Assembly: GCA_024635555.1 (NCBI GenBank)
Contig: JAGXIO010000147.1
Coordinates: forward strand, 1-44,127
DNA length: 44,127 nucleotides
From: Saccharicrinis sp.
Lineage (GTDB): Bacteria > Bacteroidota > Bacteroidia > Bacteroidales > Marinilabiliaceae
Direction of reading: 5' to 3'
Shown: piece after piece, positions 1,379 to 36,073 of the stretch
Layout: each line of letters opens with the position of its first letter
Numbering within the stretch: position 1 is the stretch's first letter
Program-made: the position numbers and the translations under genes
Notes under the pieces: model-generated
Databases searched by the model: none
Told to the model about the DNA's origin: nothing
Seen by the model: only the letters and a program-made list of their open reading frames with translations

Positions 1379-1502
1379 CCAAGATAGGTATTTGGACGTA
1401 AATCTGTTGCTTGCTTAATATACTAAGGAGCTTTTATGTACGTTTTTAATTTCTAAACCTACTTTGCAAACTAATATCTTAATACAAAAAAATTTAGTTT
1501 TA

Positions 1503-3932: not shown

Positions 3933-4033
3933 CCTTAGAGTTTTAATTTTTAGAATAGATTAGAGCAAAAGTTAAATTGCAAACGAAAATACTATTATAA
4001 AGTAAGAATACTATTTACATTAAGGATTTTTTT

Positions 4034-4041
4034 TACTTTTG
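4034..4041 (+). promoter_or_regulatory. Putative Bacteroidota -7 promoter box
   Basis: TACTTTTG matches the Bacteroidota -7 consensus TAnnTTTG exactly and lies about 95 bases before the second exporter gene. No good TTG -33 element is seen at the usual distance, so it is only a candidate. If real, the second exporter has its own start site and a long, AT-rich untranslated leader. Confidence 0.35.
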
Positions 4042-4136
4042 CGCCTCCAAAAATAGTAGTAGGTTAAGTCGCTCAGAAAAAGTTATTTTTTTATATAAAA
4101 GGGGACACATAAAACAAATATAAAAGTAAAGTTTAA

Positions 4137-6595: not shown

Positions 6596-6988
6596 ATGAA
6601 AGATATTCGATGGGAGCAACGTTTCAGTAATTTCAGGAAAGCACTGTTGCAGATGGAAAAGATTATCAACAAAGAGGAATTGAATGAAATTGAAGAGCAG
6701 GGATTGATAAAAGCATTTGAATATACCTATGAATTAGGCTGGAAGACCTTACAAGACTTGTTAAAAGAAAAGGGTTATCAGTCTATTGTTGGACCGCGTC
6801 CGGTTATTGAGCAAAGTTTTCAGGATGGTTATATAGTAGACGGAAGAAAATGGATGGAAATGCTTAAAAGTAGAAATCTAACTTCGCATACCTATAACGA
6901 GGAAACTGCAGCAGACGTGATTAACGATATAAAAAGTTCGTATTATAACTTATTTCTTGATTTAAAAGAGAAACTAGAGAATCTATAA
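6596..6988 (+). CDS. HEPN-domain toxin, HepT/HI0074 family
   Basis: All-helical 130-residue protein of the nucleotidyltransferase substrate-binding (HI0074/HepT) family. The diagnostic HEPN RNase motif R-X4-H-X-Y is intact as RNLTSHTY at residues 93-100, so catalytic Arg93 and His98 and the modifiable Tyr100 are all present. In characterised MNT/HEPN pairs the HEPN protein is an RNase toxin, and its partner silences it by adding AMP to the motif tyrosine. Its stop overlaps the next start (TAATG at 6986-6990), so the pair is translationally coupled. It sits 35 bases after the exporter gene, inside a polysaccharide operon. Toxicity here is inferred from family knowledge. Confidence 0.85.
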   Translation: MKDIRWEQRFSNFRKALLQMEKIINKEELNEIEEQGLIKAFEYTYELGWKTLQDLLKEKGYQSIVGPRPVIEQSFQDGYIVDGRKWMEMLKSRNLTSHTYNEETAADVINDIKSSYYNLFLDLKEKLENL

Positions 6989-7302
6989 TGGTAGCACCTA
7001 CTAAATTTGGTTTGATGGTGTCTGAAATTGAAAGCATCGTAGTTGTTTTTAAAGCAAATAGTAAAATTACAGAAGTGATTTTATTCGGAAGCAGAGCCAA
7101 AGGTAGCCATTCGAATGGATCGGATATAGATATAGCTATTAAAGGCGATAACTTATCCACAAAAGATATAACCGCTGCTCTTATTGAGATGGATGAACTA
7201 TTTCTCCCTCATAAGTTTGATGTTATCATTTACGAACGTATTAACGAGCCTGCGCTAAAAGAACATATCGACAGGGTAGGTAAAATATTATATTCCAAAT
7301 AA
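6988..7302 (+). CDS. MNT-type minimal nucleotidyltransferase antitoxin
   Basis: A 104-residue minimal nucleotidyltransferase of the MntA type. The polymerase-beta fold signature GSX10DXD is complete: Gly34-Ser35, ten residues, then Asp46-Ile-Asp48 (GSRAKGSHSNGSDID). These bind ATP and metal. In the known family it AMPylates the tyrosine of the partner HEPN toxin, and the coupled gene order (HEPN first, MNT second) is typical. The last 87 bases of this gene, together with downstream sequence, are repeated at 8778-8906 on the far side of the AlbA_2 gene, leaving a broken second copy of its 3' end there. Confidence 0.88.
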   Translation: MVAPTKFGLMVSEIESIVVVFKANSKITEVILFGSRAKGSHSNGSDIDIAIKGDNLSTKDITAALIEMDELFLPHKFDVIIYERINEPALKEHIDRVGKILYSK

Positions 7303-7347: not shown

Positions 7348-7382
7348 TTAAAAACAATTTTTAATTTTACATCTTTTAATTG

Positions 7383-8744
7383 ATGACAGCACAACCTATT
7401 CTTGATATAATTGCTAAAGGTGAAGGTATTCATGTTGAATTTAAGTCTTCATTTAATGCGGAAGCAATTGTGTCATTGGTGGCATTTACGAATACCAAAG
7501 GCGGTAGTGTGTTGGTTGGCGTTACTGATAATGGTGAAATAACGGGAGTGCAGTTAGGGAAGGAGACCATCGTGAATTGGGTGAATGAAGTGAAGAATAA
7601 AACCGCACCTGTTCTTATCCCTGATGTTGAGGTTGTTTCTGTAGATAATAAAAACGTAGTGATTCTTACTTGCGATGAGTATCCTGTTAAGCCTGTGTCA
7701 ACCAAAGGTCGTTATTATAAGAGAGTAGAAAATTCCAATCATCCCTTGTTGGTATCTGAAGTGGTAGATTTGCATTTGAAGTCCATTAATATGAGTTGGG
7801 ATTCATTTCCCGACCCGTTGCATGTCATCGATGATATTTCACTTGAAAAAGTACAAAGGGCTATCGAGGTCATGAAGCAGAATCAGCTTTCTATATACGA
7901 AGATCCTGTGGCCTTTCTTATGAAGTATGATTTAATTAGGGATAATAAACTGACAAATGCTGCCTATTTATTATTTAAAGAAAAAGATTCGGTTAATACG
8001 ACCATTGAATTAGGTCGTTTTCAGGATGAGATAACTATTAAGGATTCAGTCCGCTCAAAATCGGATATTTTGACACAAATTGATGTTGTTATCGATTTTG
8101 TTAGGAAGCATATTAATAAAGAGGTGATTATAACTGGTGAAGCTAAAAATATCCAAATATGGCAATATCCCTTGGAAGCAATCCGGGAGGTTGTTATTAA
8201 CATGATACTGCATAGGGATTACCGGTCAAGTTCCGATTCGATTGTTAAAGTGTTTAACGACCGCATTGAATTCTATAATCCCGGTCGATTACCGGATACG
8301 ATATCGGTTGATGACTTGTTGAGTAATAATTACCGTTCAACACCACGGAATAAAGTATTGGCTGACTTTAGTAAGGATATGGGGCTGGTTGAAAAATATG
8401 GTTCCGGAATTAAGCGTATCCTTAATTATTTTACTGATGCTAACTTGCCTGTGCCGGAATTTAAGAATATATCCGACGGATTTATGGTGACGGTGTTTTC
8501 TGAAAATGTCACTGAAAATGTCACTGAAAATGTCACTGAAAATGTCACTGAAAATGTCACTAATGACAGGCATCGTTTAATTGTTGCTTATATTTCTAAG
8601 AATCCGGTAATTACAGTGGATGAATTGGCTGAAATCGGGGGTGTTACCCGTCGAACCATTCTTAGGGATCTTGAACAGCTAAGAAGCCAAAATGTAATAA
8701 AAAGGGTAGGGCCTGATAAAGGAGGAACTTGGGAAGTTTTTTAA
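7383..8744 (+). CDS. AlbA_2/Schlafen-type ATP-binding protein with C-terminal winged helix
   Basis: A 453-residue protein (ATG at 7383, one codon after an alternative TTG). The N-terminal AlbA_2 domain (about residues 12-130) carries EFKSSFNAEAIVSLVAFTNT and a GGxxxVGVxDxG strand. A GHKL-like HATPase_c_4 domain follows (about 255-345) with LEAIREVVINMILHRDY and an NPGRLP segment. Next is a linker of tandem Asn-Val-Thr-Glu units and a DeoR/HTH_11-like winged helix (about 395-453, VDELAEIGGVTRRTILRDLE). Such proteins are usually annotated as RecG-like transcriptional regulators; related AlbA_2 domains occur in defence genes, and no function is proven. It lies between 130-base direct repeats, so it is a later arrival in the operon. 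Confidence 0.85.
   Translation: MTAQPILDIIAKGEGIHVEFKSSFNAEAIVSLVAFTNTKGGSVLVGVTDNGEITGVQLGKETIVNWVNEVKNKTAPVLIPDVEVVSVDNKNVVILTCDEYPVKPVSTKGRYYKRVENSNHPLLVSEVVDLHLKSINMSWDSFPDPLHVIDDISLEKVQRAIEVMKQNQLSIYEDPVAFLMKYDLIRDNKLTNAAYLLFKEKDSVNTTIELGRFQDEITIKDSVRSKSDILTQIDVVIDFVRKHINKEVIITGEAKNIQIWQYPLEAIREVVINMILHRDYRSSSDSIVKVFNDRIEFYNPGRLPDTISVDDLLSNNYRSTPRNKVLADFSKDMGLVEKYGSGIKRILNYFTDANLPVPEFKNISDGFMVTVFSENVTENVTENVTENVTENVTNDRHRLIVAYISKNPVITVDELAEIGGVTRRTILRDLEQLRSQNVIKRVGPDKGGTWEVF
8501..8560 (+). repeat. Five 12-base tandem repeats in the AlbA_2 gene
   Basis: TGAAAATGTCAC occurs five times in perfect succession, encoding a (T)ENV linker between the ATPase-like and winged-helix domains. The unit is a multiple of three, so changes in copy number would alter linker length but not reading frame. 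Confidence 0.97.
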
Positions 8745-8765
8745 CCTGCCCTATTCAGGTTAAAA
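8739..8765 (+). terminator. Perfect hairpin overlapping the AlbA_2 stop codon
   Basis: TTTTAACCTG (8739-8748) pairs perfectly with CAGGTTAAAA (8756-8765) across a 7-base loop. The stop codon TAA at 8742-8744 lies in the stem. There is no T run after it on the plus strand, so termination efficiency is uncertain. It would separate the AlbA_2 gene from Wzz. Confidence 0.5.
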
Positions 8766-8777
8766 TAAAAGATATAA

Positions 8778-8906
8778 TTTGATATTATCATTTACGAACG
8801 TAACGAGCCTGCGCTAAAAGAACATATCGACAGGGTAGGTAAAATATTATATTCCAAATAATTTGAGATAATTCGCCGACAAACATGAACCAAGATAAAA
8901 ACAACA
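8778..8906 (+). repeat. Direct repeat, right copy, flanking the AlbA_2 gene
   Basis: Second copy of 7216-7347. It carries a decayed 3' end of the MNT gene with an in-frame 3-base deletion (TATTAACGAG becomes TAACGAG). It also contains the working Wzz start at 8885. The two copies differ at only three positions plus that deletion, so the duplication is recent or maintained by recombination. Confidence 0.92.
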
Positions 8907-10108
8907 CCCCAGAGCCAAAAAACGCTAACAGCGAAGCCGAAGAAATCTCCCAAGAGAAGGCCTCCAACTCCCCTTCCTTGGGAGGGGGCAGGGGGGAGGC
9001 TGTTCGGGGGGAGGCTTCCCCCATAATCAAAGACGATGAAATTGATCTGATAGCCTTGGTGAAAACTATTTGGGCCGGACGAAAAATCATCATTTACTCG
9101 GTTGTGGTTTGTGCATTTATTGGTTTGGTATATGCCTTCACTAGTCCGGCCAAATATACAGCCTCAGCCACACTACTTCCATCGGCAGAGAAAAAAGGAG
9201 GTAACCTTGGTGGCTTGGGCGCCTTGGCGGGAATGGCTGGCATAAATATCGGTTCCATGATGGGAGAGTCGTCGGGCATTCCTGCTGAAATTTATCCGCA
9301 AGTGGTGAATAGTTATCCTTTTTTGAATGAGTTTATACACCAAAAGTTTAACTTTGAAAAATATCCTCAGCCCATATCTATTTACGACTATGTATTGGCA
9401 GATACCATTGCATCCATAGGTTCCACAATTAAAAAATATACCATAGGCTTACCTTGGACATTAAAAAATGCCGTTTTTACTGCGAATCAAAAGGAGAAAG
9501 ATACGGTTAGAATAGATTATGGCGTATTGAGTATTTCTCAAAATGAGCTGAGGGCATTGGGAATGGTTCGAAATATCTTTAAAATAGAAGTGGACAAAAA
9601 AACGGATCTGGTTATGGTTACCGTAGAGGTAAGCGAACCCATACTTTCTGCACAGTTTGTACAAAAAGGGGTGGCGCTGCTACAACAATACATTATTAAT
9701 TATAAAACCCAACAGGCACGCGAAAATCTTGATTTTGTACAGCAACGTTACGACGAAAAGAAATCAGAATATGAAGAAGCCCAAACCGCATTCTTTGATT
9801 ATAAAGACAATCATCGGAACATTGTATCCGAAAGAGTAAATCTGGAGTTTCAAAGTTTAAGCGATAATTATGATATCGCATCCACCGTTTATAAAGGATT
9901 GGCTCAGCAGTTGGAACAAGCTAAAATAGCGGTAAAAGAGGAAACACCTGTGTTTACTGTTTTGGAGCCTGTCAAGGTGCCAAATGAGAAAAGTGCACCT
10001 CGGAAAGGAATTATTTTGGTGGTGAGTGTTTTTCTAGGAGGATTTTTGGGATTGGGGATAATCTTTGGAAGACTCATGTGGGTTAGTTTTAGGAAAAGTA
10101 AAAAATAA
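8885..10108 (+). CDS. Wzz-type chain-length determinant protein
   Basis: Inner-membrane polysaccharide co-polymerase expected to set polymer length with the Wzy polymerase. The protein has 407 residues. There is a cytoplasmic N-terminal extension (1 to about 66), TM1 about 68-86 (IIIYSVVVCAFIGLVYAF), and a Wzz periplasmic domain starting PAKYTASATLLPS. A long helical/coiled-coil region (about 275-350, YDEKKSEYEEAQTAF) follows, then a proline-rich VLEPVKVPNEKSAPRK segment, and TM2 near the C-terminus (IILVVSVFLGGFLGLGIIFG). There is no fused tyrosine kinase domain. Residues 27-46 are encoded by a G/C-rich 60-base insert unlike the rest of the gene. The start lies in the right copy of the 130-base repeat. 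Confidence 0.87.
   Translation: MNQDKNNTPEPKNANSEAEEISQEKASNSPSLGGGRGEAVRGEASPIIKDDEIDLIALVKTIWAGRKIIIYSVVVCAFIGLVYAFTSPAKYTASATLLPSAEKKGGNLGGLGALAGMAGINIGSMMGESSGIPAEIYPQVVNSYPFLNEFIHQKFNFEKYPQPISIYDYVLADTIASIGSTIKKYTIGLPWTLKNAVFTANQKEKDTVRIDYGVLSISQNELRALGMVRNIFKIEVDKKTDLVMVTVEVSEPILSAQFVQKGVALLQQYIINYKTQQARENLDFVQQRYDEKKSEYEEAQTAFFDYKDNHRNIVSERVNLEFQSLSDNYDIASTVYKGLAQQLEQAKIAVKEETPVFTVLEPVKVPNEKSAPRKGIILVVSVFLGGFLGLGIIFGRLMWVSFRKSKK
8963..9022 (+). repeat. G/C-rich REP-like insert in the Wzz reading frame
   Basis: A 60-base stretch of C-runs followed by G-runs lies in an otherwise AT-rich gene. It contains CTCCCC...GGGAGGGGG self-complementarity and a small stem GGGGGA (9007-9012) with TCCCCC (9017-9022). 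It encodes exactly 20 codons (SNSPSLGGGRGEAVRGEASP). Similar Gly/Pro-rich in-frame segments are familiar as a dispersed repeat in Bacteroidota genomes, which is from general knowledge. The insert is confined to the cytoplasmic tail. Confidence 0.65.
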
Positions 10109-10150
10109 GGAAAAACTAAAGGTTTATTTATAGTAAGAAAAATAGTATAT

Positions 10151-11464
10151 ATGAGTCAGGAGTTGCTTAGAAAAAAGATTTTGGAGTTGGTTGTAGAATA
10201 TTATCAAGAATCCCCCAAAGTTCAATTTGAATCAGGAAAGAGTAGTATTCCTTTTGCCGGTCGAATTTATGATGCCGAAGAAATGGTCAATCTCGTGGAT
10301 TCCTCACTTGATTTTTGGTTGACTACTGGTAGATATGCCGAAGAATTTGAAGCTAAATTTGCTGAAATTATGCAACAACGATATTGCATGTTGGTAAATT
10401 CAGGATCATCGGCCAACCTAATTGCGATTTCTAGTTTGTTTTCACCAATGCTTAAAACAAGACGTATTAAGCCAGGTGATGAAATAATTACTGTTGCCGC
10501 AGGTTTTCCTACTACTGTAACACCAATTATTCAGAACGGTGCTATACCAGTATTTGTTGATGTGGATATTGAAACCTTTAACATCCAAATTTCTTTAATT
10601 GAACAAGCAATTACACCTAAAACAAAAGCAATTGTACTAGCACATACCTTAGGTAACCCGTTTGATCTTAAAAGTATTCGTGCTATTTGCGATAAATACG
10701 GTTTGTTTTTGGTCGAGGATTGTTGCGATGCAGTTGGTTCTACTTTCGATGGTAAAATGGTTGGTACATTTGGAGATATTGCGACTACTAGTTTTTACCC
10801 TGCGCACCATATTACAATGGGTGAAGGAGGATCCGTATTAACTAGCAACCCTATTTTAAAAAGAATCGCTACTTCATTGCGTGACTGGGGACGTGATTGT
10901 TATTGCGACCCAGGTTGTGACAATACTTGTGGACGACGATTTAAGAGTCAATACGGTGATTTACCTCACGGATACGACCATAAGTATGTATATAGCCATT
11001 TGGGCTATAACCTAAAGGTCACAGATATGCAAGCTGCTGTGGGTGTTGCTCAGTTAAAAAAACTTCCTGAATTCATTCAAGCACGTAAGGATAACTTTAA
11101 AAAGCTAAGTGAAGGGTTAAAGTGTTTTGAAGAGTATCTTATCCTACCCAAACCTACTCCAAATTCTGAACCTTCTTGGTTTGGATTCCCCTTTACAGTG
11201 AAAGCTTCGGCACCTTTTAAGCGGAATGATTTGGCTAACTTTCTTGAGGATCATAAAATCCTCACACGGCAGCTTTTCGCTGGTAATATGACCCGTCAAC
11301 CAGCATTTAAGGATGTGAATTATCGAATTAGCGGTTCACTTGAAAATACGGATAAAATTATGAATGGAACTATCTTTATCGGTGTTTATCCAGGTATTGA
11401 TCAAGTTCGTATGGATTATATACTTGAAGTGTTCAATCAGTTTTTCACCAACTTATCTTATTGA
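10151..11464 (+). CDS. rfbH: CDP-4-keto-6-deoxy-D-glucose 3-dehydrase (E1)
   Basis: Pyridoxamine-phosphate and [2Fe-2S] enzyme that removes the C3 hydroxyl from CDP-4-keto-6-deoxyglucose, the key step to 3,6-dideoxyhexoses. The 437-residue length matches RfbH/AscC. It belongs to the DegT/DnrJ aminotransferase fold, but the PLP-anchoring lysine is replaced by His220 in SFYPAHHITMGEGG, the hallmark of this dehydrase. Cluster cysteines are visible as Cys192 and the group C250-x-C252-x3-C256-x3-C260 (RDCYCDPGCDNTC). It starts a block with a reductase, RfbF and RfbG. The stop lies 3 bases before the next ATG. Confidence 0.95.
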   Translation: MSQELLRKKILELVVEYYQESPKVQFESGKSSIPFAGRIYDAEEMVNLVDSSLDFWLTTGRYAEEFEAKFAEIMQQRYCMLVNSGSSANLIAISSLFSPMLKTRRIKPGDEIITVAAGFPTTVTPIIQNGAIPVFVDVDIETFNIQISLIEQAITPKTKAIVLAHTLGNPFDLKSIRAICDKYGLFLVEDCCDAVGSTFDGKMVGTFGDIATTSFYPAHHITMGEGGSVLTSNPILKRIATSLRDWGRDCYCDPGCDNTCGRRFKSQYGDLPHGYDHKYVYSHLGYNLKVTDMQAAVGVAQLKKLPEFIQARKDNFKKLSEGLKCFEEYLILPKPTPNSEPSWFGFPFTVKASAPFKRNDLANFLEDHKILTRQLFAGNMTRQPAFKDVNYRISGSLENTDKIMNGTIFIGVYPGIDQVRMDYILEVFNQFFTNLSY

Positions 11465-11466
11465 TT

Positions 11467-12159
11467 ATGGCAACTATTAGTAAAGCAGTTGTGAAGAGTA
11501 TAAAACAGTATGGTGAGGATGTAAGAGAATTTATTATCGAGCCTGAAAAATATAGTTTTTTCGATCCTGGAACATTTCTGCAGTTGGCACTTGAAGAACC
11601 AAAAGGTAACCGTTGGCCAGATTCTCGAAACTTTAGCATGGCTTCGTTTTTAAACGACGATAAAACCATACGACTTGTGATTCGTAAAATTGGTGTTTTT
11701 ACAACACGAATTTTCAACGAACTCAATGTTGGGAGTACTTGTTATTTAAAATATAGCTTTGGTGATTTTTTGCTTCCATTTTACGACAATGTCAATCCAA
11801 TTGTATGTATCGCAGGAGGAACTGGAATCGCACCTTTTTTATCGTTTGCAGAATATTTAAAAAGCATCAAAAAAGAATCTCGAATGTTTCTTTTTTATTC
11901 AGCAAAAAACATGGAGGAACTCATAGCTTTAAATGAAATTAAAAGGAGTATTGCTTCGGCGAATTTACATGTTTATCTGACGCGGGAAATTCATTCAGAT
12001 TGGCATAGTGGAAGAATTACCGTGGATAATGTTGTAGAATCGGTATCCTCTATTGTAAATGCTCATTTTTATATTTGTGGAGGAGAAGAATTCACTAGTA
12101 CCTTCAAAAAGCAACTTACTGCCTTGGGTGCTGAGAATATATATACTGACGAATGGTAA
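11467..12159 (+). CDS. FNR-type FAD/NAD(P)H reductase, probable RfbH partner lacking the ferredoxin domain
   Basis: Predicted flavin reductase that passes electrons from NAD(P)H to RfbH. The 230 residues (ATG 11467) hold an FAD-binding barrel with RNFSMASF (the R-x-F/Y-S flavin motif) and a nucleotide domain with GGTGIAPFLSF and CGGEEF. This equals only the C-terminal two thirds of AscD/E3 (CDP-6-deoxy-3,4-glucoseen reductase, about 330 residues). The N-terminal plant-type [2Fe-2S] domain with its CX4CX2C cysteines is absent, and there is no room for it between the RfbH stop and this start. A separate ferredoxin may bridge the two, or the flavin may reduce RfbH directly. Its position between rfbH and rfbF supports the assignment. 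Confidence 0.75.
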   Translation: MATISKAVVKSIKQYGEDVREFIIEPEKYSFFDPGTFLQLALEEPKGNRWPDSRNFSMASFLNDDKTIRLVIRKIGVFTTRIFNELNVGSTCYLKYSFGDFLLPFYDNVNPIVCIAGGTGIAPFLSFAEYLKSIKKESRMFLFYSAKNMEELIALNEIKRSIASANLHVYLTREIHSDWHSGRITVDNVVESVSSIVNAHFYICGGEEFTSTFKKQLTALGAENIYTDEW

Positions 12160-12187
12160 TTTTAACGATAATTCAAATAATTAAAGA

Positions 12188-12967
12188 ATGAAAGTAGTAT
12201 TACTGGCTGGTGGTTTTGGTACTAGATTGAGTGAAGAAACCAAAGCAATGCCAAAACCAATGGTGAAAATTGGTGATATGCCAATTATTTGGCATATCAT
12301 GAAAACCTATTCGCAATTTGGTTACAATGAATTTATTATTTGTTTGGGTTATAAGGGGTATGCATTGAAAGAATGGTTTTCAAATTACTTTATACATACC
12401 AGCGACATTACCATTGACCTCAAAAATAATAAATTAGAGGTGCATAATAGTGCGTCAGAGCCTTGGAAGGTTACCTTAGTTGAAACGGGTTTGCACACGA
12501 TGACAGGTGGACGCATTAAACGTGTACAAAAGTATATAGGGAATGAGCCGTTTATGTTAACTTATGGCGATGGTGTTGCGGATGTCAATATTGGAGATTT
12601 GGTAAAAACTCATAAGGAGAGTAATAAACTGCTCACAGTGACTGCTTATAAACCGCAAGGAAAGTTCGGTTCGTTAGAGATTGATAAGGATGGGTCAGTA
12701 ACTGCTTTTACTGAAAAACCGGCTGGAGATGGCATGTGGATTAATGCAGGTTTTTTTGTGTGTCAACCTGAGGTTTTTGAGTATATCACCGAGGGTGATG
12801 CCACCATCTTTGAGCGAAAGCCATTGGAAATGCTGGCCAAAAATGATCAAATGAATTCTTTTATACATCGAGGTTTTTGGAAACCAATGGATACACTTCG
12901 GGATAATACCGAATTGAATGAAATGTGGGAAAAAAATAAAGCTCCCTGGAAAATATGGAACAAATGA
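12188..12967 (+). CDS. rfbF: Glucose-1-phosphate cytidylyltransferase
   Basis: Makes CDP-D-glucose from CTP and glucose-1-phosphate, the first step of CDP-6-deoxy sugar synthesis. The 259-residue length is standard. The N-terminal nucleotide-binding signature is LLAGGFGTRLSEET (residues 5-18), followed by KPMVKIGDMPIIWHIM. The segment YGDGVADVNIGDL supplies the metal-binding aspartate, and FTEKPAGDGMWINAGFFV and GFWKPMDTLRD are typical of RfbF. It ends in ATGA overlapping the next gene's ATG at 12964, indicating translational coupling to the dehydratase that uses its product. Confidence 0.95.
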   Translation: MKVVLLAGGFGTRLSEETKAMPKPMVKIGDMPIIWHIMKTYSQFGYNEFIICLGYKGYALKEWFSNYFIHTSDITIDLKNNKLEVHNSASEPWKVTLVETGLHTMTGGRIKRVQKYIGNEPFMLTYGDGVADVNIGDLVKTHKESNKLLTVTAYKPQGKFGSLEIDKDGSVTAFTEKPAGDGMWINAGFFVCQPEVFEYITEGDATIFERKPLEMLAKNDQMNSFIHRGFWKPMDTLRDNTELNEMWEKNKAPWKIWNK

Positions 12968-14052
12968 ATAGCTCAGTAGATATTTACGATGGATTTTACA
13001 AAGATAAAATCGTATTGGTAACAGGTCATACGGGCTTTAAGGGAAGTTGGTTATGTATTTGGCTTCTCGAAATGGGTGCTAAAGTTATTGGTCTGGGTCT
13101 GGATCCTTATACGGAGCGGGATAATTTTGTTCTTGCTGGACTAAGCTCCAAAGTTACTGATATCAGAGGAGACATTAGAGATCAGGCCTTGGTTAAAAAA
13201 GTCATGAAGGATTATCAACCTGATATCGTTTTTCATTTGGCTGCACAGCCTTTAGTCCGCTTATCCTATGATATCCCAGTAGAGACGTATGAAGTTAATG
13301 TAATGGGAACTATTCATGTACTTGAAGCAATTCGGACTTGTGCCAGTGTTAAAGTAGGTGTAATGATTACAACCGATAAGTGTTACGAGAATAAAGAACA
13401 AATTTGGGGTTATCGCGAGAATGAAGCCATGGGAGGACATGATCCTTACTCTTCGTCAAAAGGTGCAGCAGAAATTGCTATTGCCTCTTGGCGCAATTCA
13501 TTCTTCAACCCTGCACATTATAAACAGCATGGTAAATCAATAGCCAGTGCCCGTGCAGGAAATGTGATCGGTGGTGGAGATTGGGCTAAAGATCGAATTA
13601 TACCAGATTGTATTAAGGCAATTGAAAGCGGACAAACCATTGAAATAAGAAGTCCAAAAGCTGTACGTCCATGGCAACATGTACTCGAACCATTATCAGG
13701 TTATTTGTTACTAGCCAGTAAGATGTGGCACGAACCAACCAAGTATTGTGAAGGTTGGAATTTTGGACCTAATGCAGATTCTATTGCAACCGTTTGGGAT
13801 GTTGCAACAGAGGTAGTTAAGTGTTATGGTAAGGGTGAACTAAAAGACACTTCAAATAAACATGATTTGCATGAAGCAAAGTTATTAATGCTCGATATTA
13901 GTAAGGCCAAATGGCAGCTGGGTTGGGATACTAAGTTCACTTTCAATCAAGCTATTGCAGAAACTGCAAAGTGGTATAGAAAATATACGGATACCAATGT
14001 GTTTGAATTAGTTAAGAGTAGTTTAATTGTTTTTCAAGAAATACGGTCTTAA
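12964..14052 (+). CDS. rfbG: CDP-glucose 4,6-dehydratase
   Basis: SDR enzyme that converts CDP-glucose to CDP-4-keto-6-deoxyglucose. Rossmann motif GHTGFKGSWL, catalytic YxxxK in DPYSSSKGAAE, and the conserved TTDKCYENKE and RPWQHVLEPLSGYL segments identify RfbG. Two starts are possible, ATG 12955 (13-base overlap) and ATG 12964 forming an ATGA overlap with the rfbF stop. I prefer the second because this junction style recurs at other overlaps in the operon. Length is about 362 residues, as usual. It supplies substrate to RfbH, encoded upstream. Confidence 0.95.
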   Translation: MNSSVDIYDGFYKDKIVLVTGHTGFKGSWLCIWLLEMGAKVIGLGLDPYTERDNFVLAGLSSKVTDIRGDIRDQALVKKVMKDYQPDIVFHLAAQPLVRLSYDIPVETYEVNVMGTIHVLEAIRTCASVKVGVMITTDKCYENKEQIWGYRENEAMGGHDPYSSSKGAAEIAIASWRNSFFNPAHYKQHGKSIASARAGNVIGGGDWAKDRIIPDCIKAIESGQTIEIRSPKAVRPWQHVLEPLSGYLLLASKMWHEPTKYCEGWNFGPNADSIATVWDVATEVVKCYGKGELKDTSNKHDLHEAKLLMLDISKAKWQLGWDTKFTFNQAIAETAKWYRKYTDTNVFELVKSSLIVFQEIRS

Positions 14053-14966
14053 TGAGGGTTTTCATTACTGGTGCTACAGGGTTTATTGGATCACACATTG
14101 GAGATAAGCTTCATGAAATGGGTTTGTCCATTATGGCACTAAAGAGAGCTAATTCTGATATGTCGAATACACTTGAGTTCAAAGATAATACGGTATGGCT
14201 TAATTCTGAAGTCCCGAATTGGAGAGAAGAAGTGATAACTTTTAAACCAGATATTATAATTCATTCAGCTTGGATTGGAGTTGATTCGGTAAGTAGAGAT
14301 AATTGGCAAGATCAGCTAACAAATATTACCTTTTTATATGATTTACTATATATTGCAAAAAAATGTAATGTTCAAAAATTTATAGCATTTGGATCACAAG
14401 CTGAATATGGAGTACTAAATAAAATTGCTTCCGAGGATCAACCTGAAAATCCTGTTTCAAGCTATGGAGCTGTCAAAGTTGCAACACACCAAATTGCGAA
14501 AACATTTTGTTGTCAGAATAATATTAAATTCTTTTGGTTAAAACTATTTTCTTTTTTTGGAGAACGTGAATCAAAGAAATGGCTCATTCCTTTAATGGTT
14601 AATAAAATTAAGAATAACATATCAATTGATTTAACGGAAGGGGAACAAAAATACAGTTATCTATATATAAAAGATTTTGCATCTAAAATTGGAGAACTTG
14701 TTTTGGCAAATATTGATTCAAATGATTTTATTATTTCGTCCAATTATTCAATTTCTATTCGAGAATTAGTAACAAAAATAAGGGACTTCGTTAACCCTGG
14801 ATGTCAATTGAATTTCGGAGCTATCCCAATGCGTACAAATCAATCATTGGTTATTCAAGGTAATTCTAGTAAATTTGAATCTTTATTTGGGCCATTGGTA
14901 ATGTCTGATTTTAATACCAAGTTAGAATTAACAATACGTTATTATTTAAGTTTAGAAGATAAATAG
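14052..14966 (+). CDS. SDR-family NAD(P)-dependent sugar reductase/epimerase
   Basis: A 304-residue extended SDR with Rossmann motif GATGFIG (7-13), Ser115 (FGSQAEYG) and catalytic Tyr138-x3-Lys142 (SYGAVKVA). Its start overlaps the RfbG stop (TAATG). Next to RfbF/G/H it probably performs the final 4-keto (or side-chain keto) reduction, like RfbJ/RfbS (abequose, paratose synthases) or YerF of the yersiniose pathway. The ThDP enzyme immediately downstream makes the YerF-like role attractive. Its own sequence does not fix the stereochemistry or substrate. Confidence 0.7.
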   Translation: MRVFITGATGFIGSHIGDKLHEMGLSIMALKRANSDMSNTLEFKDNTVWLNSEVPNWREEVITFKPDIIIHSAWIGVDSVSRDNWQDQLTNITFLYDLLYIAKKCNVQKFIAFGSQAEYGVLNKIASEDQPENPVSSYGAVKVATHQIAKTFCCQNNIKFFWLKLFSFFGERESKKWLIPLMVNKIKNNISIDLTEGEQKYSYLYIKDFASKIGELVLANIDSNDFIISSNYSISIRELVTKIRDFVNPGCQLNFGAIPMRTNQSLVIQGNSSKFESLFGPLVMSDFNTKLELTIRYYLSLEDK

Positions 14967-14974
14967 AGATAAGT

Positions 14975-16717
14975 ATGCGAAAAATATCGGATTATATAGT
15001 TGAGTTCTTTGTAAAAAAGAATGTTAAAGTGGTATTTGGTTATATAGGTGGTATGATTACACATTTAGTTGATTCAATTAACAAAAATGAAGAAATTAAT
15101 TATATCCAAGTCTATCATGAACAATCAGGAGCCATTGCAGCCGAAGGCTACGCAAGGATTACTGGGAATGTTGGGGTTGCAATTGCAACAAGTGGGCCTG
15201 GTGCAACTAATATGATTACGGGTATTGCAAATGCTTATTTTGATTCTATTCCGGTTATTTATATAACTGGTCAAGTTAACAGCTACGAATTTAAATATGA
15301 CAAACCAATAAGGCAACTGGGATTTCAAGAAACAGATATAATTTCAATGGTAAAAGGGATTACAAAATATGCTAAATTAGTTGACAATCCCGATGATATA
15401 CCTTATGAATTAGAGAAGGCTTTTTCTATTGCTAATGAAGGCAGAAAAGGCCCTGTTCTTCTGGATATACCAATGAATGTTCAACGTACGGATATTGAGC
15501 TTTCAAAATGTAAAACTTTTAAAGCAAGCGTTAAAAGACACCGCCATATTGACTGGAATATAATAATCGATGAGATTAAAAGTGCAAAACGGCCGATGAT
15601 ACTCGTTGGCGGTGGTGCTAATGATTCCAAATCAATAAATCAATTAGATTATTTAGCATCTTTAAATATACCGATAGTATGCTCATTAATGGGAAAGGGT
15701 ATTGTGGATGAGATGAAAAATAGTTTTGTAGGTATGATTGGTAGTTATGGTAATCGTTGTGCAAATATGGCTATTAATAATTGCGATATTCTGATAGCAC
15801 TAGGAACTAGACTAGATACCAGGCAAACCGGAGCCCAATATCAATCATTTCTTAAAAATGGTAAGATTCTTCACGTTGACGTGGATGAAAATGAATTAGA
15901 TTTTCATAGACTTGAAGAAAGAATTAGTATTCATAGTCCGGTTGGGGAGTTTCTAGATGAACTTGTAAAAAGAAATGTCACATTTAATAGAGATGATAAA
16001 TGGATGAATTTTATATCCTATTTGAAAGAAAAATATAATCAAAAAATGGAAATAGAGCGTTTTGTTGATAACAAGATTCCATATCAATTTATGGATTTAA
16101 TTAATTCACTTGCGCCAAGTAACGCTGTATTTACTGTTGATGTAGGACAAAATCAGATGTGGGCAGCTCAAACGTTAAAACTAACAAAGAATCAAAAATT
16201 CTTCACAAGTGGTGGACATGCTCCAATGGGATATGCTTTGCCTGCCGCGGTTGGTTGTGCTATGGGTAATTATGAAAAACGTATAATTGCAATTTGTGGA
16301 GATGGTGGATTTCATATTTCTACACAATCACTTTTGTTAATATCTCAATATAATTTACCAATTACTATTTTTGTTTTTAATAATAGCTCTTTGGGAATGA
16401 TTACCCAATTTCAAAGTTTATATTTTGAAAAGCGTTTAACCGGTACTACCTATTCTGGGGGTTATTTGGTACCTGACATCGAAAAAATGGCTGAGGCCTA
16501 TTCAATCAAATATAAACAATTTTCTGAAGAAGATATTTATGACAAATGTAAACAAAATGAGATCTTTTCCCATCGCCATATAATAGTTGAAATCCTAATT
16601 AAGGGTGAAACTACTGTCTCACCTAAACTTGAGTATAATAAGCCTATTGACGAGCTATATCCTTACTTAAACGAATCGGAATTCATGATTTATAAAGATT
16701 TTTTAAAATCAGAATAA
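14975..16717 (+). CDS. ThDP-dependent acetolactate-synthase-like enzyme, candidate YerE-type sugar acyltransferase
   Basis: A 580-residue three-domain ThDP enzyme of the acetolactate synthase family. The cofactor-activating Glu49 lies in YHEQSGAIAAEGYAR, the central domain has a GGGA segment, and the ThDP/Mg motif runs from GDG (442-444) to NN (469-470). It sits between CDP-dideoxysugar genes and the flippase, with no small regulatory subunit or valine-pathway genes. In Yersinia pseudotuberculosis O:VI the related YerE uses pyruvate to attach a two-carbon branch to C4 of a CDP-4-keto-3,6-dideoxyhexose. The same role here would give a yersiniose-like branched sugar. This is inference from context; another decarboxylative carboligation is possible. 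Confidence 0.72.
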   Translation: MRKISDYIVEFFVKKNVKVVFGYIGGMITHLVDSINKNEEINYIQVYHEQSGAIAAEGYARITGNVGVAIATSGPGATNMITGIANAYFDSIPVIYITGQVNSYEFKYDKPIRQLGFQETDIISMVKGITKYAKLVDNPDDIPYELEKAFSIANEGRKGPVLLDIPMNVQRTDIELSKCKTFKASVKRHRHIDWNIIIDEIKSAKRPMILVGGGANDSKSINQLDYLASLNIPIVCSLMGKGIVDEMKNSFVGMIGSYGNRCANMAINNCDILIALGTRLDTRQTGAQYQSFLKNGKILHVDVDENELDFHRLEERISIHSPVGEFLDELVKRNVTFNRDDKWMNFISYLKEKYNQKMEIERFVDNKIPYQFMDLINSLAPSNAVFTVDVGQNQMWAAQTLKLTKNQKFFTSGGHAPMGYALPAAVGCAMGNYEKRIIAICGDGGFHISTQSLLLISQYNLPITIFVFNNSSLGMITQFQSLYFEKRLTGTTYSGGYLVPDIEKMAEAYSIKYKQFSEEDIYDKCKQNEIFSHRHIIVEILIKGETTVSPKLEYNKPIDELYPYLNESEFMIYKDFLKSE

Positions 16718-18024
16718 TGATTCGCAAACTTTTTCAAAGTGAATTATTAAGGAAATCATCATTAGTCACTGCATCCTCGGCAATTTCTGCTTTTTCTCGT
16801 TTTCTTTTAGTTACGATTTTGGCAAGATACTTTAGTCCTGAAACTTATGGTGTATGGGTTTCCATTACTTCCGTAGCTGCTATAATGATGTTTGGTGATT
16901 TTGGTATTACCAATGCTTTAAGAAATAAGCTATCCTTATTAAGAACCTCGGATAATGAAACCGATGATATAGAGAGGGAATACTTTTTTACCACGTTTTA
17001 TTTCTTTATATTTTTTTCTGGATTACTGGTATTTGGTTTTCTTTGGTTGTCGGATTTTTTACCAATTGAAAAGCTCTATAATACAAGTGATATCTTATTA
17101 AAAAAACAAGGGGTTCAAATGTTTGTCTATGTTCAGGTAGTTTTTCTAATTGGAATACCTTTTGGAATAGCTATGGGGCTCTTTTTTTCGTATAACGAGA
17201 GCAATGTAGTGGCAATTATAAATATACTCAATAGTCTTGTTTCTCTAGGAGCAATATTATTTGCTGCTTTTATTTTTAACGTTGATATAGTTATTCTAGC
17301 TAAACTTTATTTCGCGCTTAATCTAGTATTTAGTGTGGTAGCCTTTGTGATATTTATTGTAAAACGAAAATGGTATAATTGTTTTTCAATAAGCTTAAAA
17401 TTTGCATTTTATCGAGTTATGGAAATGCTAGGAACCGGAATGATGTTCTTGGGCATTCAGATATCAACATCATATATTTCAAATGTACCTACTGTCTTTA
17501 TTGGTGCTGTTGGGGATTTATCAATGGCGGCTAGTTTTAATATATTACAGAAATTATATGTGTTTGTGATAAATATTTATCAAAGTGCATTTAATCCAAT
17601 TTGGTCAAAAATATCAGAACTTGTGGTATTAAAAAAATGGCAGCAAGTAAAAAGACTACATTTAAATGTAATTATTCTATCTATTTTACTTATTGGGGTG
17701 TTTACTTTTCTATTACTGATATTTTCAAACAGTATCATTCATTTGTTTGTAGGTAACGGATATATTGTATCAAAGAGTTTGGTCGCTCTAGTTGGAGCCT
17801 CATATACTCTATACATTGCTTTTGAGGCCTCCTCATTATTACAAAATGCATTAGGAAAAATAAAATTAAGGTTAAGTTTGCAGTTGGTATTGTTGTTTAT
17901 TTTAAATTTTTCATTATCAAAGGTCTATTCCATTTTAGGAATAAATGGAATTCCTGTTGTTTTGGGAGTATGTTGGTTAATTCTCTTTGTATCAATATAT
18001 ATTCAAGGTAGAAAAGTTATTTGA
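16717..18024 (+). CDS. Wzx-type polysaccharide flippase
   Basis: A 435-residue integral membrane protein of the MOP/polysaccharide transporter group with about 12 hydrophobic helices. It begins with SAISAFSRFLLVTILARYFSPETYGVW, a typical Wzx N-terminus where the first helix is followed by a conserved P-x-x-Y-G-x-W segment. It would move the undecaprenyl-linked repeat unit across the inner membrane. Its ATG overlaps the stop of the ThDP gene (TAATG). Codon use is strongly AT-rich, as for the following glycosyltransferases. Confidence 0.85.
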   Translation: MIRKLFQSELLRKSSLVTASSAISAFSRFLLVTILARYFSPETYGVWVSITSVAAIMMFGDFGITNALRNKLSLLRTSDNETDDIEREYFFTTFYFFIFFSGLLVFGFLWLSDFLPIEKLYNTSDILLKKQGVQMFVYVQVVFLIGIPFGIAMGLFFSYNESNVVAIINILNSLVSLGAILFAAFIFNVDIVILAKLYFALNLVFSVVAFVIFIVKRKWYNCFSISLKFAFYRVMEMLGTGMMFLGIQISTSYISNVPTVFIGAVGDLSMAASFNILQKLYVFVINIYQSAFNPIWSKISELVVLKKWQQVKRLHLNVIILSILLIGVFTFLLLIFSNSIIHLFVGNGYIVSKSLVALVGASYTLYIAFEASSLLQNALGKIKLRLSLQLVLLFILNFSLSKVYSILGINGIPVVLGVCWLILFVSIYIQGRKVI

Positions 18025-18025
18025 T

Positions 18026-19027
18026 ATGCAAGTGTTAAAGGATATAATTTACGGCATTTTATCAAGAAGAATTGTGAAAAACATGGACGTGAAACATATT
18101 GAAAATAGAAATATAGTTGTATATAGCTTAACGGGTAGAGGGTTATACTCCGAGTTGATAAATTTAGTATTGGCCTCAGTATATTGTGAGAAAAATTCCT
18201 TAGAGTTGGTTGTAAATACCTACAATTGGAATGCGAAGTATAAATTGGGGTGGAATGATTATTTTTCTTCATCTTTAAAAGTATCGGATAGTATATTTTC
18301 TTCCCAAATACATTTCCAAGGCTTTAAATATCAAATAACTATTAAGAGTTTTGTGAAAAATCCTATTCGTGAGATTAAGCACGTCATCCTATGTTTACTT
18401 AATATAGTATTTAAATTAAAAACAGGTAACTTCTTAACACATGACATAGTATCTTGCATGCGAGATCAAGAATTCGTCTTATCCTTGGGGACTTTAGAAA
18501 AATGGAAAGCAATATTTATAAATAAAATTAATGAAATTTACATTTTAAACACACAATTAAAAAATGAATTAGATGCTTGTATCTGTGAACTTGGACTAAA
18601 AAATTTAGACTATATTGGTATGCATATTAGACGAGGTGATAAAATTAAATCCAAAGAAATGGATCATTTTAGTCTAGATAGCTACGTTCGGGAAATTGTT
18701 AACTGTAAACACAAGACAAGGAATGTATATATAGCAACCGATGATATATCAATAATTGATAGCTTTAAAAGGAAATTGGGAAGCGAGTATAATGTGTTGT
18801 ATAATAAAGGTGCAAAGTCAAAAGGATTTAATGAAGCAAAATTCAATAAAAAATCTAGGAAAACACGTTTTTGGGATATGAAAATGACATTATTGGATGT
18901 TGAAATATTATCTGCTAGTTCATTTTTTATAGGCACCTACTCAAGTAATTTAAGTAGAATTGTACCATGTCTTCGAAACTTTGAAAATTGTAGATCTATG
19001 GATATTGAATGGTACCCAGTTTTTTAA
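18026..19027 (+). CDS. GT23-like fucosyltransferase (NodZ/FUT8-type motifs)
   Basis: A 333-residue putative GT-B fucosyltransferase. ATG 18026 is chosen over an upstream in-frame TTG at 17987 because the latter overlaps the flippase gene. Motifs include MHIRRGDK at about 199-206 (the GDP-fucose-binding HxRRxDK block), VYIATDD at about 234-240, and FFIGTYSSNLSRI near the C-terminus. All three are shared with the alpha-1,6-fucosyltransferase/NodZ superfamily. GDP-fucose would come from gmd/fcl at 27860-30137. Overall similarity to classical GT23 members looks low outside these motifs, so the linkage cannot be stated. Confidence 0.7.
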   Translation: MQVLKDIIYGILSRRIVKNMDVKHIENRNIVVYSLTGRGLYSELINLVLASVYCEKNSLELVVNTYNWNAKYKLGWNDYFSSSLKVSDSIFSSQIHFQGFKYQITIKSFVKNPIREIKHVILCLLNIVFKLKTGNFLTHDIVSCMRDQEFVLSLGTLEKWKAIFINKINEIYILNTQLKNELDACICELGLKNLDYIGMHIRRGDKIKSKEMDHFSLDSYVREIVNCKHKTRNVYIATDDISIIDSFKRKLGSEYNVLYNKGAKSKGFNEAKFNKKSRKTRFWDMKMTLLDVEILSASSFFIGTYSSNLSRIVPCLRNFENCRSMDIEWYPVF

Positions 19028-19037
19028 AATCCCAATA

Positions 19038-19946
19038 ATGATGCTTCAAGTATTTATTCTTACATATAATCGACCGAATACTTTAATTATAGCCCTAGAT
19101 TCGGTTTTAAAACAAAACTTTACAGAATATGAAATTATCATATCGGATAATTCAACCAATGATGAATCTAAGTCTTTGATAAGTAAAAGACTTTACAAGG
19201 AAAAGAACCTAACCTATATCAAAAGGGAACCAAGTCTACCAGCAATCGAGCATTTTAATAAAGTTTTAAGTGAAGTTTCTGAAGAATATTTTATGTTGTT
19301 TCATGATGATGACATCATGAAGCCAAGTATGATTCAAAATCTCTATGATCTAATTTCAAAGGATAAGGAAATTTCTGCAGTTGGTTGTAATGCTCAAAAA
19401 ATTAATCGCAAGAGAAGATCTGGATATTTTAGAAAGAATAATGAGAGAATTATTCGATATAATAATCGCTCTGAATTTATCCTATCATACTTAGGGACGG
19501 AAGGTTGTGCCGTTTTTCCGGGTTATATGTATAGAAGTCAATTAGTTAGAGGGCTTAAAATGGATTTTTCTATTGGGGGTAAGTACTCTGATGTTACATT
19601 TTTAATGTCAGTATGTGACAGGGGATCTATTTTGGTGACAAACAAAGCCTTAATGAATTATTACATACATAAAGGGCAAGATAGTATGATAAATGATTAC
19701 TTAAGTAAGAAATCATTTATCAGTCATATTGCTAACACTACTATATTTTATTTCCGACATCCATTGGTAAAATCTTATAGAATTGAAAATGTACTGAGTG
19801 AAATTTTAAGTTCTGTAATTTCAAATACAAAGCCAATTTCATTGAAAAAGTATGTCCTCGTAATGGTATTATCTTTAAAATATTCTAAAAAGCAATTTTT
19901 TAGATCCGTATACTACTTGCCAAAGTTTATTAAAAATAAGTTATGA
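19038..19946 (+). CDS. Family 2 glycosyltransferase
   Basis: GT-A fold transferase of about 302 residues starting at ATG 19038 (a second ATG follows directly). The family-2 signature is clear: LQVFILTYNRPNTLIIALDS at the N-terminus, then ISDNSTNDES, and the DxD-type metal site in FHDDDIMKP. A Gly-Cys/Trp-type acceptor region follows. It is cytoplasmic or membrane-associated and would add one sugar to the lipid-linked repeat unit; donor and linkage are unknown. It overlaps the next gene by 4 bases (ATGA). Confidence 0.85.
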   Translation: MMLQVFILTYNRPNTLIIALDSVLKQNFTEYEIIISDNSTNDESKSLISKRLYKEKNLTYIKREPSLPAIEHFNKVLSEVSEEYFMLFHDDDIMKPSMIQNLYDLISKDKEISAVGCNAQKINRKRRSGYFRKNNERIIRYNNRSEFILSYLGTEGCAVFPGYMYRSQLVRGLKMDFSIGGKYSDVTFLMSVCDRGSILVTNKALMNYYIHKGQDSMINDYLSKKSFISHIANTTIFYFRHPLVKSYRIENVLSEILSSVISNTKPISLKKYVLVMVLSLKYSKKQFFRSVYYLPKFIKNKL

Positions 19947-20920
19947 TCGTTGTAAAGATTTCAATTAATTCTAATTTTCCTATCGAAAGGCAATTGCCGT
20001 TAGAATTTGAGGATACTGAAGGGGTAAGATTTGTGATTAATAAAGAAATTGAGGAATGTGATTACTGGTTAGTATATGACAATCTATCAACTAAAGAGTC
20101 TGTAAGGTGTCCTATAGAGAACACCATTCTCATTACTGGAGAGCCTGCAACTGTTAGGTGCTATAATAAAGGATTCATTAATCAATTCAAAACTTTAATT
20201 ACTACGCAGAAAGGTCTAAAACATCCGAATAAAATATATATGCAACCAAGTTTGCCTTGGCTAGTAGGAGTTGAGTATGATAAAAATTTAAAAGAATTCA
20301 AAAACGATGTTTATTGGAAATATGAAGATTTTAGAGATAAAGATTTTTATAAAGACAAAACTCAATTGATTTCATTAATCTCTTCAAATAAAGGATTTAC
20401 AAAAGGACATCAACAAAGAGTTAAATTTATAAAAGTGCTAAAGGAGGTGTTAGGAGACCAATTAGATTTATACGGCAATGGATATTTGCCAATACCTGAT
20501 AAATTGGATTCATTAAAAAATTATAAGTATGCTATTGTAATCGAAAACTCTGAACTTCCTAATTACTGGACTGAAAAGCTTGCAGATGCGATGATATGCG
20601 AATGTATCCCAATTTATCATGGTTGCACCAACGTTGATCAATATTTTGGAAATAAAGGGATGGTTAGAATTAACATAAATAATCCAACGGTTGCAGTTGA
20701 AAAAATTTTAAAAACCATTAATAGCAATATGTTCTATGAGGAAAAACAAGAAATTTTGGTGAATAAATCTAAAATACTAAATAATTATAATTTGTTTAAT
20801 GTGATTAGCGCTATGGTGAGGAAAGATAATAAGGTATATTTAAAACAAAACGTCACTATTCTGCCAGAGCAATTTTCATTTTTCGATAAAGTGGAAACTT
20901 ACTTCAGAAGGTATAACTGA
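19943..20920 (+). CDS. GT10 alpha-1,3/1,4-fucosyltransferase-like protein
   Basis: A 325-residue protein with the GT10 donor-binding signature. YKYAIVIENS (194-203) is followed by NYWTEKLADA (207-216) and CIPIYHGC, where Glu201 and Lys212 correspond to the GDP-fucose-contacting residues of Helicobacter and animal alpha-1,3 fucosyltransferases. No membrane segment is seen. Together with the GT23-like gene and gmd/fcl it argues that fucose is added at two positions of the repeat unit. The start overlaps the preceding stop (ATGA). Confidence 0.88.
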   Translation: MIVVKISINSNFPIERQLPLEFEDTEGVRFVINKEIEECDYWLVYDNLSTKESVRCPIENTILITGEPATVRCYNKGFINQFKTLITTQKGLKHPNKIYMQPSLPWLVGVEYDKNLKEFKNDVYWKYEDFRDKDFYKDKTQLISLISSNKGFTKGHQQRVKFIKVLKEVLGDQLDLYGNGYLPIPDKLDSLKNYKYAIVIENSELPNYWTEKLADAMICECIPIYHGCTNVDQYFGNKGMVRININNPTVAVEKILKTINSNMFYEEKQEILVNKSKILNNYNLFNVISAMVRKDNKVYLKQNVTILPEQFSFFDKVETYFRRYN

Positions 20921-28978: not shown

Positions 28979-28998
28979 GCACTAAATACAAAAACTTT

Positions 28999-29044
28999 AA
29001 AGTTTCTTAAATTCAGTATGTTGAATTAAGAAACTTTTTTTATT
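28999..29044 (+). terminator. Intrinsic terminator between gmd and fcl
   Basis: AAAGTTTCTTAA plus ATTCA (28999-29015) pairs with TTGAATTAAGAAACTTT (from 29021), a stem of about 16 pairs with one bulged A. A run of seven T's follows (TTTTTTT to 29041). This is the strongest terminator in the window and would reduce read-through from gmd to fcl. Confidence 0.82.
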
Positions 29045-29054
29045 TCATATTGCC

Positions 29055-35724: not shown

Positions 35725-36063
35725 ATGAAAGTCCATTTAATCAAAAAGCAAACTATTGAAAATTATATCAAGAAAAATGCACGGAGTAAAGCGTCTTTTG
35801 AAATATGGTTTTCGATTATAAAGCGGGTAGAATGGAAAGAACCGAAAGCAATAATATCTACTTTCAGTAGTGCTGATATATTAGGCAAAAGTTCAGAACG
35901 TGTAGTATTCAATATTGGAGGGAACAATTATAGAATGATTTGCCGCTACCACTTTGGAGGCAGTAAAGTTCATTTGTTTGTAAAGTGGATAGGTACTCAT
36001 GCAGAATATACAAAACTATGTAATGAACAGAAGCAATATGAAGTAAGTTCTTTTAATCAGTAA
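35725..36063 (+). CDS. higB: HigB-family mRNA interferase toxin
   Basis: A 112-residue RelE-superfamily toxin of the HigB_toxin type. The N-terminal helix with KKQTIENYIKKNARSKASFEIWFSIIKR is followed by the strand block ERVVFNIGGNNYRMICRYHFGGSKVHLFVKWIGTHAEYTKL, characteristic of ribosome-dependent HigB. The basic and aromatic residues near the C-terminus (KWIGTHAEY) form the usual active-site region. It precedes its antitoxin by 10 bases, the reversed order typical of hig loci. Expected activity is cleavage of translated mRNA. Confidence 0.88.
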   Translation: MKVHLIKKQTIENYIKKNARSKASFEIWFSIIKRVEWKEPKAIISTFSSADILGKSSERVVFNIGGNNYRMICRYHFGGSKVHLFVKWIGTHAEYTKLCNEQKQYEVSSFNQ

Positions 36064-36073
36064 ACAGTAGAAA

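Follow-up and report, generated by a model that had tools for sequence, protein, structure and literature searches.

As outlined in part of PMC12247030, YerE-like lyases form a subclass of decarboxylases that use isolated ketones, and the same text, crediting Krug 2024, counts more than 200 predicted members. Yersiniose A is, in the passages of PMC4753412 that treat it, reported from members of the Proteobacteria (Yersinia, Burkholderia, Budvicia and Pseudomonas), with the step of branch reduction called uncharacterised in 2016, and an excerpt of PMC4509608 recognises the ddhA-D/yerE/yerF set in Pseudomonas WCS417. In light of these reports, the kind of pathway described here is already known. 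Our subject is a gene cassette in a stretch of 44,127 nucleotides from Saccharicrinis sp. (Bacteroidota; contig JAGXIO010000147.1 of assembly GCA_024635555.1), which we refer to as the window. What is new is a Bacteroidota cassette that combines a thiamine diphosphate (ThDP)-dependent carboligase on a separate phylogenetic branch, a short-chain dehydrogenase/reductase (SDR) distinct from YerF and a reductase devoid of a ferredoxin domain, with a chemistry that we infer from sequence. Among the literature matches listed, we recognised no report of a yersiniose-type pathway in Bacteroidota.

The cassette (positions 10151-16717) consists of six intact and closely packed open reading frames on the forward strand, which encode RfbH, a reductase, RfbF, RfbG, an SDR and a ThDP enzyme, in the order given in a preliminary description of this DNA. 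The genes for cytidine diphosphate (CDP)-4-keto-3,6-dideoxyglucose, RfbH (720 bits against an NCBIfam cut-off of 423), RfbF (396 against 300) and RfbG (490 against 278), are thus found in one run with the gene of the ThDP enzyme. From the identity of the genes, their phylogeny, the diagnostic residues and the association of the genes across loci, which is conserved, we consider it likely that the product of the cassette is a CDP-activated 4-C-branched 3,6-dideoxyhexose destined for a surface polysaccharide encoded by the locus, a sugar that would become yersiniose-type after reduction by the SDR. Taken separately, we hold a branched-sugar pathway to be highly probable, and have moderate confidence in the specific two-carbon, reduced product. 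RfbF would provide CDP-glucose, RfbG would generate CDP-4-keto-6-deoxyglucose and RfbH would, together with the short reductase, remove the 3-hydroxyl to yield CDP-4-keto-3,6-dideoxyglucose. The ThDP enzyme is then predicted to decarboxylate an alpha-keto acid (pyruvate being the most likely one) and to attach the acyl anion so formed to the ketone at C-4, creating a tertiary alcohol and an acetyl branch, whose carbonyl would be reduced by the non-YerF SDR to a 1-hydroxyethyl group. The most likely product is CDP-3,6-dideoxy-4-C-(1-hydroxyethyl)hexose, and a local glycosyltransferase might add the branched sugar to the repeat unit prior to its export by Wzx. The branched-sugar interpretation of the preliminary description is supported; the pyruvate donor, the acceptor, the reduction step, the stereochemistry and the incorporation are inferred.

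The assignment of the last gene as a YerE-like enzyme and not as the large subunit of an acetohydroxyacid synthase (AHAS) is reflected in its similarity to proteins of known structure. The best PDB match in a phmmer search is 5ahk (416 bits, 41% identity), followed at distance by the best AHAS (286 bits) and by 8rph (235 bits), which is JanthE according to a section of PMC12188165. The entry 5ahk was deposited as acetolactate synthase II. Assuming a 20-residue tag, we identify it as YerE of P. protegens (PpYerE), because Val499 of the chain would then correspond to V479 of PpYerE as numbered in an excerpt of PMC12247030, and because it groups with the enzyme of Pseudomonas canadensis (L021; L numbers denote loci and G numbers genomes), which is encoded in an RfbF-RfbG-RfbH-ThDP-SDR cluster with the full order E3-RfbF-RfbG-RfbH-ThDP-YerF-like. 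In a phylogenetic tree of 104 rows (66 AHAS, 26 YerE, 10 of a third class and two outgroup rows), the four row classes require three changes in all, which is the minimum possible. A careful tree of 34 rows places the window enzyme in a clade of five Bacteroidota rows (support 100/100) inside a superclade of YerE and JanthE proteins (100/100), and in approximately unbiased (AU) tests on this tree its union with AHAS is rejected at p 5.2e-8 and its union with JanthE-type enzymes at p 3.6e-33. The grouping with anabolic acetolactate synthases, named beforehand in the preliminary description as the result that would speak against a branching enzyme, did not occur.

The distinction extends to the active site. 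Asp is found at window position 282 in 66/66 AHAS rows and Trp at position 479 in 61/66, and both residues are absent from all 26 YerE rows; the window enzyme carries Thr282 and Phe479 in their place. We take these positions to be equivalent to D376 and W574, which belong to the herbicide site of AHAS from plants. The features expected of a decarboxylating carboligase, Glu49 and a GDG...NN motif (Asp443, Asn469-Asn470), are present as had been claimed, and in line with the proposed lack of a regulatory subunit, no ACT domain was reported among the 20 scanned proteins of 8885-31071. The genome encodes a separate AHAS (L010), with AHAS I (6lpi, 467 bits) as its best PDB match and 35% identity to the window enzyme. 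An identity as AHAS is rejected on the basis of the NCBIfam cut-off discussed below, the diagnostic residues, the trees and the AU test, and a JanthE-type identity on that of the difference in bit scores and the corresponding AU test. Four relatives are 53-57% identical to the window enzyme. A ThDP homologue at L014:9995-11728 shares 53% identity with it, and RfbF, RfbG and RfbH were not found in the fetched stretch of that locus. At E<=1e-120, the enzyme was detected in at least two of 295 genomes of its own order, the window's included, the other being G140 (locus L139); this and the genome counts for RfbH and the SDR given below are lower bounds, since the best four or five candidates per genome were scored. 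A search of a plasmid collection (E<=1e-90) returned three records with 34-37% identity, two of them annotated as acetolactate synthase and one without annotated feature.

The same branching chemistry could also draw on a keto-acid donor of the erwiniose or caryophyllose type, which is longer or functionalised, and would then leave a longer branch on the sugar. Long donors are used by some YerE-like enzymes (ErwE and JanthE, in the part of PMC12247030 concerned with them), and the clade of the window enzyme constitutes a branch of its own. We nevertheless regard a longer donor as unlikely in view of the rejected JanthE-type placement, and HpcH/HpaI and NeuB domains were not reported in the scanned window proteins, the rest of the genome not having been searched for them.

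Gene context across loci ties the YerE-like class to RfbF, RfbG and RfbH. In a contig search that started from the ThDP enzyme, with a profile built from a two-row alignment, the best 80 loci comprise 20 of a YerE group and 60 of an AHAS group, which were defined by identity rank and context and afterwards compared with the 104-row tree. A strong match to RfbF, RfbG or RfbH is contained in 15 of the 20 YerE-group loci but in none of the 60 AHAS-group loci (Fisher 2e-12), with stretches below 8 kb accounting for 1/20 and 9/60, respectively. In L015, the SDR beside the ThDP gene is separate from an Abe-like one, which the locus encodes along with a tyvelose-type epimerase.

The SDR of the cassette is less readily assigned. 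It shares 20% identity over 235 residues (E 0.007) with YerF, taken as the SDR following yerE in Y. aleksiciae, which together with Y. vastinensis stands in for Y. pseudotuberculosis O:VI in our comparisons. Identities to the paratose and abequose synthases of Salmonella are 23% (E 1.5e-12) and 21%, and the closest reference protein is an SDR from Methylovirgula (29%, E 3e-53), located in a cluster of the order RfbF-RfbG-SDR-RfbH-split-transketolase. The preliminary description had stated that YerE and YerF perform exactly this final branching and reduction, a statement that is too strong for a cassette whose SDR is not recognisable as YerF. In a tree of 51 rows, the window SDR clusters with those of L012, L160, L164 and L019 (100/98), all five of which adjoin a YerE-like ThDP gene. 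The YerF clade (100/100) excludes the window SDR in this tree and in one of 31 rows. Orthology to YerF is not supported by similarity, and a single clade of both proteins is compatible with the AU test at p 0.143, with the window SDR on a long branch. An identity as abequose or paratose synthase is rejected, since its inclusion in the clade of these enzymes (Abe/Prt) is rejected at p 2e-107 and its inclusion in Abe/Prt together with RmlC-type proteins at p 8e-4.

When grouped according to the 51-row tree, SDRs adjoin a carboligase in 7/7 cases for YerF, 5/5 for the window type, 1/2 for their sisters and 3/3 for a delta group (16/17 in total), compared to 0/15 in the Abe/Prt and RmlC groups. 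The 19 rows outside this count (six of a mixed JanthE-type clade, L133_7001, L140 and eleven others) include three that adjoin a carboligase. A search with the SDR only (E<=1e-45) identified it in at least 3/395 Bacteroidota genomes, with all three copies next to a YerE-like gene, and its residues S115, Y138 and K142 are invariant in 4/4 aligned rows. In G140 (L139), a ThDP gene whose product is 55% identical to that of the window is followed by a YerF-family SDR (34% identity to Yersinia YerF), which we interpret as SDRs from two lineages having taken on one and the same role.

Alternatively, the acetyl branch might stay unreduced, with the SDR catalysing a C-3/C-5 epimerisation or reducing a different sugar. 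Its reaction is assigned indirectly, and in L014 no homologue of a reference SDR lies beside the close ThDP homologue. We consider this improbable, marginally more so than a longer donor, given the adjacency of window-type SDRs to the ThDP gene in all five loci and the YerF-family SDR at the equivalent place in L139. Finally, it is very improbable that the SDR acts as a C-4 reductase similar to abequose or paratose synthase to yield an unbranched CDP-3,6-dideoxyhexose beside an unrelated acetolactate synthase, since the closer resemblance to paratose synthase than to YerF and the matches to AHAS models are set against both AU rejections of such a placement, the lack of a carboligase next to any of the 15 Abe/Prt- and RmlC-type SDRs, the rejected AHAS placement and a genome that holds its own AHAS.

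RfbH finds its best PDB match in 3bcx, a CDP-6-deoxy-L-threo-D-glycero-4-hexulose-3-dehydrase (599 bits), and none of the 52 distinct RfbH rows deviates from it at residues C192, H219, H220, C250, C252 and C260, with H219-H220 being part of a PAHHIT motif. We presume that these conserved residues comprise the histidine that stands in place of a lysine and the cysteines of the cluster. The reductases near RfbH display three layouts, with either an N-terminal 2Fe-2S ferredoxin domain (Fer2), a C-terminal one or none. Among four tested long reductases, Fer2 is N-terminal in Salmonella L138 and L152 and C-terminal in L160 (13081-14109) and L164 (12402-13433), and it is absent in the window reductase and in five other tested short reductases (224-228 residues). 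Homologues of the window reductase are found near RfbH in L019, L139, L165, L166, L167 and L168. As the last three of these loci are of the Abe/Prt type, short reductases are not exclusive to branching.

Several observations weigh against the proposed synthesis of a branched, reduced sugar. The best NCBIfam model for the ThDP enzyme describes the AHAS large subunit (TIGR00118, 473.7 bits), yet with a score under the cut-off of 538.35. The five Bacteroidota rows of its clade do not nest with the YerE clade of Proteobacteria, and a single clade of all YerE rows is not rejected by the AU test (p 0.58). Five of the 20 YerE-group loci (L014, L018, L020, L024 and L031) do not contain a strong RfbF, RfbG or RfbH match, and L014 belongs to the clade of the window enzyme; L024 and L031 show one weak family-level match each and L020 is a contig of 4.8 kb. 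For the SDR, the support of the five-row clade is 73/96 in the smaller 31-row tree, the groups compared for adjacency had been read off the 51-row tree before counting, and the role as branch reductase is proposed from context. Last, the window reductase does not contain the Fer2 domain found in the Salmonella control.

Table 1. Genes of the cassette and its immediate neighbours in the window.
Feature	Position	Strand	Evidence or remarks
RfbH/DdhC-type CDP-4-keto-6-deoxyglucose 3-dehydrase (E1)	10151..11464	+	NF011936
Short reductase (flavin/NAD), presumably with E3 function as electron donor to RfbH	11461..12159	+	NAD_binding_1, NAD_binding_6
RfbF, glucose-1-phosphate cytidylyltransferase	12188..12967	+	TIGR02623
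RfbG, CDP-glucose 4,6-dehydratase	12955..14052	+	TIGR02622
Extended SDR, proposed C-4 acyl branch reductase	14052..14966	+	Epimerase domain; S115, Y138, K142
YerE-like ThDP-dependent carboligase (putative ketone-accepting branch transferase)	14975..16717	+	Three TPP-enzyme Pfam domains, trees
Wzx-type flippase	16717..18024	+	Weak Polysacc_synt match, PF01943 26.6 bits, below cut-off of 28.2
Wzz chain-length determinant, directly upstream of cassette	8885..10108	+	PF02706 57.7 bits

The tight coupling of the genes that had been described earlier is largely found (Table 1). TAATG overlaps join RfbG to the SDR at 14052 and the ThDP enzyme to the flippase at 16717, and an ATGA overlap is obtained at 12964 if the second ATG of RfbG is used as start. 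The junction between RfbH and the reductase is a TTGA with a TTG start and not an ATGA; an ATG is present at 11467, where the reductase may start. The cassette is directly followed by a Wzx-like gene as previously noted, its match to the family lying just under the cut-off, and forms part of a run with two Wza-like exporters containing SLBB domains (1464-6560), several glycosyltransferases and an O-antigen-ligase-like membrane protein. At 14052, the guanine plus cytosine content falls from 38.9% in RfbG to 30.5% in the SDR, and it remains at 27-33% up to and including the glycosyltransferases. In composition, the branching genes thus resemble the variable portion of the locus, as opposed to RfbH, RfbF and RfbG. 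Fucosyltransferase-like proteins (FUT8/GT11-like and GT10) are encoded at 17987-20920 and a guanosine diphosphate (GDP)-mannose dehydratase with an epimerase-family protein at 27860-30137, which together suggest fucose in the same polysaccharide. The idea that a second dehydratase (30184-31071) is a copy of that at 27860-28978 was dismissed, as the two are only 22% identical across 204 residues. In the interval from the exporter genes to Wzz lies an AlbA_2/HATPase protein (7380-8744), whose linker contains the tetrapeptide ENVT five times in tandem; it is adjoined by a nucleotidyltransferase pair (6596-7302), and further downstream resides a pair of a HigB-like toxin and a helix-turn-helix antitoxin (35725-36523), which is also matched by PD-Lambda-2 models of PADLOC. 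A search of the window with Rfam yielded zero matches, and a repeat search of 8700-10200 a single pair of 15 nucleotides and nothing more.

To place the cassette in the phylum, we turned to RfbH, which was found at E<=1e-150 in at least 29 of 395 sampled Bacteroidota genomes, at 30 loci; as 14 of the 29 genomes come from one family (f136), they are not independent. A YerE-like gene accompanies RfbH in four of the loci (the window, L141, L160 and L164), a split transketolase in five (L143, L144, L149, L150 and L155) and a JanthE-type ThDP gene in ten (L142, L145, L147, L148, L156, L157, L158, L162, L163 and L165), the latter assignment being based on L145 and L158 (471 and 393 bits to 8rph) and on trees. 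Hence, 19/30 loci contain one of three types of putative C-branching ThDP systems. RmlC plus an SDR is found in 5/30, Abe/Prt-type SDRs in 4/30, and two loci have no assigned class (L159 and L154, which reaches the contig end). Near the JanthE-type genes are HpcH/HpaI aldolases (L142, L145) and a NeuB-plus-cupin gene (L148, L158; four of ten loci scanned), which are candidates for the synthesis of long keto-acid donors. At L150:3280-9700, in L143, L144, L149 and L155 and at L132:5107-11103, RfbF, RfbG and RfbH are located near a split, two-gene transketolase that takes the place of a YerE-like enzyme. In L150, the split transketolase is followed by a YerF-family SDR (50%), which hints at a further way of making a branched dideoxysugar. 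It is conceivable, and we put it forward tentatively at somewhat below even chances, that C-branching of CDP-4-keto-3,6-dideoxyglucose is common in the RfbH pathway of Bacteroidota and was repeatedly assembled from interchangeable parts, with three types of ThDP system (YerE-like, JanthE-type, split transketolase) and SDRs of several lineages. If so, the window would represent one such swap, in which a non-YerF SDR reduces the branch and RfbH is supplied by a reductase without ferredoxin domain, and JanthE-type systems would use donors derived from aldolase or NeuB.

A YerE-like cassette from Bacteroidota with a different reductase would offer a test case for the mechanism of branch reduction and the control of its stereochemistry, and its clade a further branch of putative ketone-accepting carboligases for biocatalysis. 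It also leads to the directly searchable prediction that branched dideoxysugars occur in Bacteroidota glycans.

Compared with described systems, the ThDP enzyme has the fold family, the ThDP motifs, Glu49 and Arg283 in common with the AHAS large subunit, but differs in its lack of the characteristic Asp and Trp and of an adjacent regulatory subunit, in its position outside the AHAS clade and in its score below the NCBIfam cut-off. DdhD and AscD (E3) fuse a 2Fe-2S ferredoxin to flavin and NAD domains, unlike the window reductase. The CDP-abequose and CDP-paratose synthases of Salmonella are likewise extended SDRs within an RfbF/RfbG/RfbH cluster, but the window SDR, at 21-23% identity, resides outside their clade, and a branching ThDP enzyme is absent from both Salmonella loci. 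With the JanthE/ErwE type (8rph), the window shares the YerE-like superclade, and JanthE-type relatives are also encoded beside RfbH, whereas the window enzyme is much closer to 5ahk and no aldolase or NeuB donor gene was found nearby. Relative to the yersiniose A clusters of Yersinia and Pseudomonas, the window differs in gene order, with an SDR located upstream of the ThDP gene that is not recognisably YerF, in the ferredoxin-less reductase and in a carboligase on a separate branch that is 37-41% identical to the YerE rows of Yersinia, Pseudomonas and Aeromonas. In common with the YerE/YerF pathway of Yersinia pseudotuberculosis O:VI and Pseudomonas, it unites RfbF, RfbG and RfbH, a YerE-like ThDP enzyme and an SDR in one polysaccharide cluster, with a carboligase that carries the same diagnostic active-site substitutions as YerE of Yersinia and Pseudomonas.

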